A DNA stretch of 32,468 nucleotides from Clostridia bacterium (GTDB taxonomy: Bacteria > Bacillota > Clostridia > UMGS1883): NCBI GenBank assembly GCA_017440585.1, contig JAFSGW010000070.1:1-32468 (forward strand), written 5' to 3'. Of the stretch, positions 911-24,830 are shown in pieces. How positions within the stretch are numbered: the first letter of the stretch is position 1; each line of letters opens with the position of its first letter. Both the position numbers and the translations under genes were made by a program. The notes below the pieces were generated by a model. The model was not told the origin of the DNA and searched no databases. It saw only the letters and a program-made list of their open reading frames with translations.

Positions 911-3403
911 CTATTTTGTTTCGTACCAGCTTGTGCCACTCTTTACATCGGCAATAAGGGGCACATTAAGAGAAACCGCCTTTTCCATTTCCTCTTTCAG
1001 AATTTCCTTAACCTTTTCCACATCAGCCATCGGAGCTTCAACAATAAGCTCATCGTGCACCTGCATAACAAGACGGCTGTCGGGACATTTGTCTTTAAGT
1101 GTATTATAAACGTTAACCATTGCTATTTTTATAATGTCTGCGGCAGAGCCCTGAATGGGTGTGTTCATGGCACACCTTTCACCAAAGGCAACAAGGTTTC
1201 TGTTTTTTGCCTTTAACTCGTCAATATACCTTCTTCTGCCGAAAATGGTTGTAACAAAGCCATTCTCCTTCGCCTTTTCCACAATGTCTGTCATATAGGC
1301 ACGTACACCCTCATACTTTGTAAAGTAGCTTTCAATATAATTACGGGCACTTTTTACGGTAATTTTCAATTCCTTGCTTAATCCGAAGTCTCCCTGACCG
1401 TAAACAATGCCGAAGTTAACCGTTTTTGCCGCAGAACGCATTTCATCCGTTACGAGAAAATCCGGCACATTAAATACCTGAGATGCTGTCATGCGGTGGA
1501 TGTCAATGTCATGTAAAAAGGCATCCGTCATGTTTTTATCGCCGGATATATGGGCGAGCACTCTCAATTCAATCTGTGAATAGTCCGCACCAACTAAGCT
1601 GCAGCCCTCTTTTGCAACAAACATTTTCCTTATTTCACGGCCCAGGCTTGTACGGGTGGGAATGTTCTGTAAATTAGGCTCTGTGGAACTCAGCCTGCCC
1701 GTTTGTGTAACGGTCTGGTTAAAGGTTGAATGTATCCTTCCGTCCTCGGCGATAACGGGCAACAGCCCGTCTGCATAGGTGGACTTAAGCTTCATAAGCA
1801 TTCTGTATTCCTGCAAAAGGTCAATAATTTCATGCTTACCGGAAAGCTTTTCCAGTACCTCGCTGTCGGTGGAATAGCCCGTTTTTGTTTTCTTTACAAC
1901 GGGAAGAGCAAGCTCTTCAAAAAGGATAACTCCAAGCTGCTTTGTGGAATTTATGTTAAATTCCTTCCCTGCCATAAAGTATATTGCGCCTTCAAGCTCC
2001 GTAAGCCTTTCGCCAAGCATTTCGCCAAATTCCTTTAAGGCGTCACGGTTTACTAAAAAGCCTTCCTTTTCCATTTGGTATAAAACCTCGCACAGGGGAA
2101 GCTCAATTTCATAAAGAAGCTTCTCCTGACCGCGTGCCTTTATTTCTTCGCTCTGGCACTTATAAAGCTCTTCCATGCTTAAAGCATTGCCGTGAAGAGA
2201 AAAGCGTGCGCATAAATCGGGCAGGGTGTAGCTTTTCACAGACGGGTCAAGCACATATTCCGCAAGGGCAAAATCATAATACTTACCCTTTAATTCTATA
2301 CCCTTGTCGGAGAGTAAATGCTTAACCTTTTTATAATCAACTGTATATTTTTCAATTTCTTCATTTTCAAAAACTGCCTTAAGGCTTTCCATTGGTGCAC
2401 TATAGGCATTATCACAAAGGAAGGTTACTCCATCCTCTGTAAGGGTGAAGAAAAGCCTTTCCTTTTCATTAAGACGGGCAATAACACTATCGTCCGCAGG
2501 AAGGATTTCTATTTCCTCTGTCGCTTCTGCCCCGTCTAACCCAAGCCTTTCGGAAAGCTTTTTCATTTCAAGCTGGTTAAGCTTTTTTATAAGCTCTCTT
2601 GTATTATAACTGCCTCTTCTTGCATCTTCAAAGTCAATTTCAAGAGGCATATCGCACACAATTGTTGCCAAATAACGGCTTAAGTATGCACTATCCTTAC
2701 CCTCAACAAGCTTCTGCCTCTGACCTTTTTTAATAATGTCAGACTCAATATTTTCATAAATCCCTTCTAAGGAATGGAAGTTTTCAATAAGTGTAAAGGC
2801 TGTTTTTTCGCCAATGCCACTAACCCCGGGGATATTGTCGGAGGCATCGCCCATAAGAGCCTTCACGTCAATAAATTCATGAGGTGTAATGTTATACTTT
2901 TCAATAAATGCCGCCTTGTCAAAATCCTCAACGGTGGTCTGTCCCATACGGGTTGTTGTGAGAAGGATGTGGGTTTTTTCGCTTGCAAGCTGCAAGTCGT
3001 CCTTATCGCCCGTTACAACAACGCACTTAACCCCTTCCCTTTCACATTTTGCGGAAACTGTGCCGATAATATCGTCCGCTTCAAAGCCCTCCTGGGAGAG
3101 CATTTTTATGTTCATGGCACAAAGGAGCTCCTTTAAGTGGGGCATCTGGGCTGCCAGGTCCTCGGGCATGCCCTTTCTCTGTGCCTTGTATTCTGAGTAT
3201 TCCTTATGGCGGAAGGTAGGTGCTTTAAGGTCAAATGCAACTAAAAGGTAGGTCGGGTTAACCTCCTCCAAGTGCTTTAAAAGAATATTCATAAACCCGA
3301 AAATGCCATTTGTGGGAATGCCCTCCTTTGTGCTAAGAGGTCTTACGCCGTAGTAGGCACGGTTTATTATGCTGTTGCCGTCAATTATCATCAAAGTTTC
3401 CAT
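911..3403 (-). CDS. polA: DNA polymerase I
   Basis: Family A DNA polymerase for gap filling and Okazaki-fragment processing. I place the start at the ATG at 3403 (830 residues) because GGTGAT lies at the right distance upstream; a TTG two codons earlier is the alternative. Order of parts: a 5'-3' nuclease domain (about residues 1-290, beginning LMIIDGNSIINRAYYG, with GDKDDLQL and GDASDNIPGVSGIGEKTA), a middle 3'-5' exonuclease-like domain (about 305-450), and the polymerase domain. Polymerase motif A is DYSQIELR (Asp607), motif B is RSAAKTVNFGIVYGQ, and motif C is QVHDE (Asp784). The middle domain lacks the DxE metal-binding motif (KERLFFTLTEDG stands where it would be), so proofreading is probably absent, as in Bacillus and Thermus polymerases. 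It is transcribed from a promoter at 3588-3616 through a structured repeat in its leader. Confidence 0.97.
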   Translation of the reverse strand: METLMIIDGNSIINRAYYGVRPLSTKEGIPTNGIFGFMNILLKHLEEVNPTYLLVAFDLKAPTFRHKEYSEYKAQRKGMPEDLAAQMPHLKELLCAMNIKMLSQEGFEADDIIGTVSAKCEREGVKCVVVTGDKDDLQLASEKTHILLTTTRMGQTTVEDFDKAAFIEKYNITPHEFIDVKALMGDASDNIPGVSGIGEKTAFTLIENFHSLEGIYENIESDIIKKGQRQKLVEGKDSAYLSRYLATIVCDMPLEIDFEDARRGSYNTRELIKKLNQLEMKKLSERLGLDGAEATEEIEILPADDSVIARLNEKERLFFTLTEDGVTFLCDNAYSAPMESLKAVFENEEIEKYTVDYKKVKHLLSDKGIELKGKYYDFALAEYVLDPSVKSYTLPDLCARFSLHGNALSMEELYKCQSEEIKARGQEKLLYEIELPLCEVLYQMEKEGFLVNRDALKEFGEMLGERLTELEGAIYFMAGKEFNINSTKQLGVILFEELALPVVKKTKTGYSTDSEVLEKLSGKHEIIDLLQEYRMLMKLKSTYADGLLPVIAEDGRIHSTFNQTVTQTGRLSSTEPNLQNIPTRTSLGREIRKMFVAKEGCSLVGADYSQIELRVLAHISGDKNMTDAFLHDIDIHRMTASQVFNVPDFLVTDEMRSAAKTVNFGIVYGQGDFGLSKELKITVKSARNYIESYFTKYEGVRAYMTDIVEKAKENGFVTTIFGRRRYIDELKAKNRNLVAFGERCAMNTPIQGSAADIIKIAMVNVYNTLKDKCPDSRLVMQVHDELIVEAPMADVEKVKEILKEEMEKAVSLNVPLIADVKSGTSWYETK

Positions 3404-3430
3404 AATCAATCACCCACGCTTCAGTCTGCT

Positions 3431-3546
3431 TTTATTAGGTAACTGCAACGTTTTTATAAGGAACAGCGACACTCCCATTCATTCATTTTCACTTTTGCTT
3501 GTAAAAAAACGAGTTAATGGGTTGGCTGTGGGTAGGGAGTGTCCCG
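3431..3546 (-). repeat. Structured 108-nt leader element, copy A (upstream of polA)
   Basis: The core is 3439-3546. Read on the minus strand, it begins CGGGACACTCCC, runs through the conserved word TACCCACAGCCAACCCA and ends GTTGCAGTTAC, followed by CTAATAAAA. The stem pairs 3545-3535 (GGGACACTCCC) with 3476-3466 (GGGAGTGTCGC): 11 positions, one mismatch, closing a loop of 58 nt. Copy B at 23833-23948 has the same length, loop size and orientation relative to its downstream gene. The element lies inside the predicted polA leader and ends 35 nt before the polA start. It may be a cis-regulatory RNA or a small palindromic mobile repeat. Confidence 0.8.
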
Positions 3547-3587
3547 TGCTGGTGCTCCCAATCACTTAGTGCTACAATTACTCAATC

Positions 3588-3616
3588 ATTATACTATTAT
3601 TTGCACATTTCTTCAA
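3588..3616 (-). promoter_or_regulatory. Sigma-A-type promoter for polA
   Basis: On the minus strand there is TTGAAG (3616-3611), 17 nt, then TATAAT (3593-3588). Transcription would start near 3581, giving a leader of about 178 nt that contains the structured repeat. It is back-to-back with the rimP promoter. Confidence 0.7.
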
Positions 3617-23795: not shown

Positions 23796-23832
23796 TTCAA
23801 TACCCCTTTATAACTACACTGAAACCCACAAC

Positions 23833-23948
23833 CGGGACATTGCCTACCCACAGCCAACCCACATTTCCGTTTTTCCACAGACTAATGCAGAAATGAATGA
23901 ATGGCTGTGTCCCGGCACCTAAAAAAAATGTTGCAGTTACTCAATAAA
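23833..23948 (+). repeat. Structured 108-nt leader element, copy B (upstream of rsmI)
   Basis: The core is 23833-23940, the same length as copy A. The stem pairs GGGACATTGCC (23834-23844) with GGCTGTGTCCC (23903-23913): 11 positions, with one T-T mismatch and one G-T pair, closing a 58-nt loop. The loop starts with the conserved TACCCACAGCCAACCCA and ends with ATGAATGAAT. The tail has GTTGCAGTTAC and then AATAAAA. The element ends 44 nt before the rsmI ATG. Confidence 0.8.
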
Positions 23949-23984
23949 ATTATGCTAAAGCCCACCTGGGGAGGAGGAAAATTT

Positions 23985-24830
23985 ATGGCAGGAACATTAT
24001 ACCTTTGTGCCACACCAATAGGCAATTTAGAGGATATAACATACCGTTGTGTACGTATTTTGAACGAGGTTGACCTCATTGCCGCAGAGGACACAAGAAG
24101 AACCTTGGGTCTTTTGAACCACCTCGGCATAGAGAAGCCCTTAACAAGCTATTACGAGCACAACAAGGCAGAAAAGGGACCTTATCTTATACAGAAGCTT
24201 TTAGACGGAATGAATATTGCCCTTGTTTCCGATGCGGGCACCCCTGCAATATGTGACCCCGGGGAGGACTTGGTAAAGCTTTGCATAAATGCAGGTGTTA
24301 CCATTGTACCCGTGCCCGGTGCTGTTGCGGCTGTTACCGCACTTATTTCAAGCGGTCTTTCAACAATAAAGTTTGCCTTTGAAGGCTTCATTTCCACCAA
24401 TAAGAAAAACCGTATTGAGCTTTTCGACCGCCTTAAAAACGAAACCCGCACAATGATTTTTTATGAGGCACCCCACAAGCTGCAGGCAACATTGGAGGAC
24501 ATGTACAAGTACTGGGGTGACAGAAAAATAACCCTTTGCCACGAGCTGACAAAAATACACGAGGAATTTATAAGAACAACCCTTTCCGAGGCTGTGCACA
24601 CCTACGAGGAAAACCCGCCCAAGGGCGAATTTGTGCTGATTGTCGAGGGAAAAAGTGAGGAAGAAATAAAGGCAGAAGAAAAGGAAGGTTGGGAGGCTAT
24701 GACTATTGAGGAGCATTTCAATTTCCACCTTTCGCAGGGACTTAGTGAAAAGGATGCCATAAAGCAGGTAGCAAAGGACCGAGGCCTTCGCAAGCAGGAC
24801 GTATATAAAGAAATAAAGATAGCCGATTAA
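23985..24830 (+). CDS. rsmI: 16S rRNA (cytidine(1402)-2'-O)-methyltransferase RsmI
   Basis: 281 residues from the ATG at 23985, which follows GGAGGAAAATTT; an upstream in-frame ATG at 23901 lies inside the structured repeat and is not used. It methylates the ribose of C1402 in the decoding centre. The tetrapyrrole-methylase-like fold is shown by YLCATPIGNLEDIT, AAEDTRRTLGLL, SDAGTPAICDPG, VPGAVAAVTALISSGL and IFYEAPHKL. The C-terminal extension (about residues 230-281) is lysine- and glutamate-rich and ends in a helical segment common in RsmI. The stop codon sits in the loop of its terminator. Confidence 0.97.
   Translation: MAGTLYLCATPIGNLEDITYRCVRILNEVDLIAAEDTRRTLGLLNHLGIEKPLTSYYEHNKAEKGPYLIQKLLDGMNIALVSDAGTPAICDPGEDLVKLCINAGVTIVPVPGAVAAVTALISSGLSTIKFAFEGFISTNKKNRIELFDRLKNETRTMIFYEAPHKLQATLEDMYKYWGDRKITLCHELTKIHEEFIRTTLSEAVHTYEENPPKGEFVLIVEGKSEEEIKAEEKEGWEAMTIEEHFNFHLSQGLSEKDAIKQVAKDRGLRKQDVYKEIKIAD

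Follow-up and report, generated by a model that had tools for sequence, protein, structure and literature searches.

Hairpin units at polA and rsmI

The window (the whole 32,468-nt stretch of DNA analyzed here) contains two copies of a short hairpin-forming element, copy A on the minus strand (3439-3546) and copy B on the plus strand (23833-23940), each 108 nt long. Copy A is located between the predicted polA promoter and the polA start codon (3403), with rimP (Pfam) as the divergent neighbor of polA, and copy B is located between the stop codon of the upstream gene and the ribosome-binding site of an rsmI-type gene. The features are:

911..3403, minus: polA, adjoining copy A (Pfam DNA_pol_A, PF00476, E 1.2e-162)
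3430..3562, minus: copy A, full unit of 133 nt (variant left end ATTGGGAGCACCAGCAC, hairpin, right end GTTGCAGTTACCTAATAAAA)
3466..3545, minus: copy A hairpin (11-position stem, 58-nt loop, type 1, CTCCC/GGGAG subtype)
3588..3616, minus: predicted sigma-70-like promoter, TTGAAG-17-TATAAT, upstream of copy A
23818..23949, plus: copy B, full unit of 132 nt (left end ACTGAAACCCAC, hairpin, right end GTTGCAGTTACTCAATAAAA)
23834..23913, plus: copy B hairpin (11-position stem, 58-nt loop, type 1, TTGCC/GGCTG subtype)
23985..24830, plus: rsmI-type gene, adjoining copy B (Pfam TP_methylase, PF00590, E 9.6e-26)

An earlier note on this DNA described two 108-nt copies with an 11-position stem and a 58-nt loop, and this description holds: the loop has the same length in both, and ten of the eleven stem positions are paired in each. 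The copy A stem (GGGACACTCCC/GGGAGTGTCGC) has a G-G mismatch at position 2, and the copy B stem (GGGACATTGCC/GGCTGTGTCCC) has a T-T mismatch at position 8. The reported swap at position 9 (C-G in A, G-C in B) is genuine, and the difference at position 7 (C-G in A, T-G in B) is likewise confirmed. The coordinates of the 108-nt copies were also correct, but the element reaches past them at its ends (3430-3562 for A; 23818-23949 for B). The similarity of the two copies is far beyond chance, with copy A as query against its own genome matching copy B at E = 1.5e-17 (BLAST). Single-sequence folding gives z = -1.7 for copy A and z = -3.5 for copy B, and there is no terminator-like call for an intrinsic terminator at either hairpin. 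The predicted polA promoter lies in a region of such length that one such site is expected by chance. On its opposite strand, the loop has a possible two-tier G-quadruplex (GGTTGG..GGGTAGG), which is kept in some copies, not all.

Copy number and structural types

Copies A and B had been treated as a polA/rsmI pair, but the genome has about 36 such hairpins. Searching this genome (G000; 2.2 Mb, 103 contigs) with copy A gives 25 strong BLAST matches and further partial ones. The earlier note had proposed a covariance-model search for homologues, and a model built from 22 copies does find them (30 matches at E < 0.001). With three sister species included (G001, G002 and G003), a scan for the end pattern finds 75 hairpins with common ends in loci of the four genomes, the figure of about 36 for G000 coming from the same scan, and the right end GTTGCARTTACCTAATCAAA occurs 24, 36, 5 and 13 times in the four genomes with no more than two mismatches. 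Some copies are at contig ends, as expected for repeats in short-read MAGs, but the E-values between different sites (to 1e-46), the unique flanks and the presence of the same family in four separate MAGs leave chance or assembly artefact as a negligible explanation.

The full unit is about 132 nt and consists of a left end (ACTRAARCCCAC), a hairpin (GGGACA..TGTCCC) and the right end. The palindrome comprises the inverted ends GGGACA plus five covarying positions, with no separate palindromic REP at either end, and the outer inverted repeat, which in the best copies reads GTWACTGCAAC / GTTGCAGTTAC, is short and imperfect. The 54 two-ended units are mostly about 121-134 nt from end to end and have no coding capacity. 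At least four unrelated loop types occur between identical ends:

Loop type 1: TACCCACAGCCAACCC..ATGAATGAATGG (52 of 73 distinct copies)
Loop type 2: GTGGGTGA..GCAGCCC
Loop type 3: CCTGACCC..GCGAAGCAGG
Loop type 4: CCTCACCC..GGAGG

The distance from the left end to the end of the right end is 131-135 nt for type 1, 128-129 nt for type 2 and 121-125 nt for types 3 and 4, and is greater in units with extra modules between the ends. The middle of the loop, which had been described as diverged, is semi-conserved across copies rather than simply diverged.

Some copies have further modules or unrelated REP-like palindromes ahead of the right end. GTAG-type REPs (GTAGGGGCGACC.. or GTAGGGGCGGG..) are found inside family hairpins, where they replace part of the loop (L051, about 1430-1500; L106; L208). 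At L183/L189 (G001:C73:4519-4550) the right end runs on into a near-perfect palindrome (GTAAACTAAAGCCAAC-GTGGGTTTTAGTTTAC), and at L025 (about 1455-1640) and L138 the hairpin is flanked on each side by a direct copy of a promoter-bearing stretch of approximately 37-40 nt (ACTTTAGTAAAAAAACACTTGACTTTT). About a dozen right ends (including those at L005, L022, L026, L030, L036, L042, L048 and L096) continue as AAACTGRTATRA, an extended -10-like motif that, from its sequence, could be a promoter for the downstream gene. There are also tandem arrays: four units of about 141 bp are present at G000:C49:3856-4372 (L014, L016, L019, L020), each made of a type-1 hairpin, GTTCGTATAGTAC and a GTGGTG..CACCAC hairpin, and a similar array with a unit of about 146 bp is found at G001:C31. 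The sequence GTAAACTRNARYCCAC was considered as a common empty docking site and rejected; most of its matches are unit ends, and it is solo-like only at polA of G002 and G003.

Covariation of the stem

Base pairs were counted in 73 distinct hairpins, in which positions 1 and 3-6 of the stem are invariant and positions 7, 9 and 11 covary. Position 9 is C-G in 45 hairpins, G-C in 26, T-A in one and another combination in one, and is thus Watson-Crick in 72 of 73, versus 38.6 expected after shuffling. Position 7 is paired in all (T-G 49, C-G 19, G-C 4, A-T 1), and position 11 is mainly C-G (52) or T-A (16), with five others. The type of pair at position 9 changes 12 times on a tree of loop sequences, which indicates that the stem is kept paired by repeated double changes or by exchange of arms. 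A covariation test had been suggested in the earlier note, and by these counts, as well as in a 22-sequence alignment whose covariation score is above all 500 shuffles and all slid versions, the stem does covary. Pairing therefore matters. The covariation fits a paired RNA and a paired single-stranded DNA alike and does not separate them; probably, it arises because folded DNA is what is moved.

Distribution among genomes

The element is present in all four genomes of the genus and in none of 56 genomes outside it (17 from other genera of the family and 39 more distant); the right end is also absent from the 17 non-genus relatives. A pattern scan of about 85,000 species, with one genome per species, matched only three "Clostridia bacterium" MAGs, RGIG7308 (water buffalo cecum), RGIG4545 and RGIG4683 (both roe deer rectum), and there was no match in plasmids or phages (BLAST) or in viral contigs (IMG/VR pattern scan). 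The family is found only in one uncultured genus of ruminant-gut Clostridia. It had not been recognized as a named family, which agrees with Rfam, where there is no match at the gathering score or even at E<=1.

Gene context

For the 81 right ends with assigned neighbors, the flanking genes relative to the element are ++ in 39 cases, -- in 29, divergent in 11 and convergent in 2, with gene contexts taken from a simple longest-ORF rule. The earlier note observed that both copies point the same way relative to the downstream gene and proposed a tabulation of orientation; there is no uniform direction (39 with, 29 against, 11 divergent), and the agreement between A and B is a coincidence of two. 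Convergent positions are rare, with at most 2 of 81 as compared to 15 of 133 other intergenic gaps of at least 20 nt in the same loci (Fisher p = 0.02), and a separate hairpin tally gives 0 of 68, the two tallies overlapping in loci and not being independent. Both convergent cases are doubtful (L132 resembles a spurious 93-aa ORF, and L170 a mis-stranded neighbor), so the true count may be zero. This preference for gene 5' ends could reflect target choice, survival between stop codon and Shine-Dalgarno in packed operons, or an occasional benefit for the downstream gene.

The adjacent genes are of housekeeping kinds and have no common theme by Pfam; they include polA, TP_methylase, NUDIX, Mur ligase, ribosome recycling factor, phosphoglycerate mutase, ornithine carbamoyltransferase, HisI/HisE, thymidylate kinase and NIF3. 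A DNA-repair regulon (polA, NUDIX, mutL-like and mutS2-like genes) was considered, but neighbors of murD-, frr-, gpmI-, argF-, hisI-, tmk-type and other kinds dilute it. The mutL- and mutS2-like labels are our own reading; for the mutL-like gene Pfam finds just an ATPase domain, and for the N-terminal fragment of the mutS2-like gene it finds nothing.

Filled, empty and swapped sites

At rsmI, the upstream stop codon leads directly to the ribosome-binding site in G001 and G003, with no trace of the element, and in G002 (G002:C11; L164, about 2345-2430) an unrelated REP-like insert, CAGTCGCCATCGGCGACAGCTTCTCCTCAAGGAGAAGCC, occupies the position of copy B in G000. At polA, the TATAAT of the predicted promoter recurs in G002 and G003, where the leader has no hairpin and only GTAAACTAAAGYCCAC, which looks from its sequence like a remnant of the left end. 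In the polA leader of G001 there are two or more type-4 units in tandem. The window is empty at infB-rbfA and polA-coaE, where G001 has a unit, and several further sites carry a unit in G000 as well as in G001.

The nearest cross-genome relative of copy A is at a non-orthologous site in G002 (94%), and among five shared type-1 sites the orthologous partner is the nearest relative only at the NUDIX site, which together indicate that site occupation turns over. The NUDIX-gene copy is the best mutual match between species, with 92% identity over the hairpin and 8 nt on each side versus about 80% for the surrounding locus. Regarding target-site duplication, the left and right neighbors of one locus resemble each other no more than neighbors from different loci do (permutation), and the sister species are too different to fix the insertion point. 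The polA site, with type 1 in this genome, type 4 in tandem in one sister and a bare left-end-like remnant in the two others, might alternatively be described as an element swap, in which a candidate recombinase would exchange hairpin cassettes between two fixed ends (a docking frame) targeted to gene 5' ends, rather than as ordinary insertion and decay; we consider this improbable.

These sites also bear on the proposal that the copies are a cis-regulatory RNA common to polA and rsmI, or, more broadly, a riboswitch- or leader-like RNA for a shared regulon of polA, rsmI and other genes. The covarying stem, the conserved loop, the position just upstream of the Shine-Dalgarno sequence and the rarity between convergent genes would all suit such an RNA. 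However, 29 of the 68 co-directional copies are antisense to the neighboring gene, the neighbors are unrelated, none of the three sister species has the element at rsmI, at polA they have lost it or carry another in its place, the same ends enclose four unrelated loop types, and there is neither an Rfam relative nor a copy outside the genus. A regulatory RNA of this type is very unlikely, and the claim for polA and rsmI is not supported.

RAYT genes and candidate repeat families

RAYT-like Y1 transposase genes are found in two of the four genomes, two of them at G000 C67 (L033/L034, G000:C67:1-2000; one is truncated at about 124 aa) and a third at G001 C7. They are directly preceded by palindromes tagged GGGGACG, which is one base off the family tag GGGGACA, and the type-3 ends (GGGACATGCCTG) resemble GGGGACGTGCCTG beside a C67 RAYT. 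There is no PF01797 match in G002, although G002 carries copies.

These neighboring palindromes would fit a strict REPIN family, in which GGAC-tagged inverted REPs are moved by the RAYTs of the genus as single-stranded hairpins, as would the compensatory changes in the palindrome and the tandem clusters including flanks, both of which are known for REPINs (PMC3116915). Against this, the tag is one base off, G002 has copies and no PF01797 match, conserved ends lie outside the palindrome, and there is no strong orientation bias relative to genes, though single-strand transposition might give one. Strict membership is possible but doubtful. CGTC-tagged repeats have been reported without an associated transposase (PMC3733652).

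A BOX-like modular repeat, partly domesticated so that it often supplies a promoter, spacer or stabilizing hairpin to the gene downstream, is a similarly tentative alternative. The modular make-up, the extra modules, the dozen or so AAACTGRTATRA continuations and the cross-species match at the NUDIX gene are consistent with it. On the other hand, BOX favors sites between convergent genes (16 of 86; PMC3049150), where the present family is depleted, and at four of the five shared type-1 sites some other copy is closer than the partner, which argues that single copies are not stably kept.

Interpretation

We consider the element to be a family of short, non-coding, non-autonomous mobile DNA repeats of the MITE/REPIN/BOX kind in one genus, with a probability of roughly 85%. 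Its copies are dispersed in both orientations, form tandem arrays, are absent or replaced at sister sites, and have repeated paired changes in the stem. A small palindromic mobile repeat that inserts upstream of genes was the other possibility raised in the earlier note, for which many copies in both orientations with empty sites were to be the mark, and this is what was found.

A transposase acting in trans and recognizing the folded strand would copy or move the units, and such recognition would preserve the pairing of the stem even as its bases change. The likeliest mover is a RAYT/IS200-like tyrosine transposase, given that RAYT genes of the genus are directly preceded by GGGGAC-tagged palindromes, but we put this step forward as a guarded suggestion because the tag is off by one base and there is no RAYT match in G002. 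No autonomous copy or transposase gene was found between the ends at any left or right end inspected in the four incomplete MAGs. Surviving copies would lie mainly between a stop codon or promoter and the Shine-Dalgarno sequence of the next gene. Effects on the neighbor gene are probably incidental, and a function for polA or rsmI is not supported. The near-absence between convergent genes is unexpected for a neutral insert and leaves room for some role at gene 5' ends. More generally, a match between two copies with a compensatory change, at first read as a riboregulator, turned into a mobile repeat after copies, orientation and empty sites were counted.

Comparison with known systems

We judge that the family is best filed as new small interspersed mobile repeats, and do not claim REPIN or BOX membership. 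Like REPINs and REP elements with their RAYTs (Bertels and Rainey 2011, PMC3116915; GTAG/CGTC REPs, PMC3733652), it consists of interspersed extragenic palindromes of approximately 100 nt, in which inverted ends enclose a variable spacer, with compensatory changes, clusters of tandem copies that take in the flanks, and RAYT genes with GGGGAC palindromes beside them in two of four genomes. It differs from REPINs in having conserved left and right ends outside the palindrome, loops that are strongly conserved within a type, and rarity between convergent genes. The RAYT genes are not flanked by the same repeat, their palindromes carrying GGGGACG as compared to GGGGACA/TGTCCCC in the family, and G002 is without PF01797.

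MITEs usually have a target-site duplication, though not with IS200-type movement. The family resembles MITEs (reviewed in PMC10969869) in its short, dispersed, non-coding copies (under 300-400 nt) with inverted-repeat ends, in both orientations and with filled and empty alleles, but its outer inverted repeat is short and imperfect, and no parent element was found. The BOX, RUP and SPRITE repeats of Streptococcus pneumoniae (PMC3049150) are likewise genus-level, modular, non-coding and hairpin-forming; they have internal modules that can be exchanged and lack a transposase of their own. This is a likeness of architecture only. Unlike BOX, which is over-represented between convergent genes, the present family is under-represented there, and it also differs from the three pneumococcal repeats in that no target duplication was found. 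It is a clean, undescribed example from ruminant-gut Clostridia, and the several loop types on the same ends, together with a gene 5'-end bias opposite to that of the pneumococcal repeats, could help to identify the transposase that moves such hairpins.
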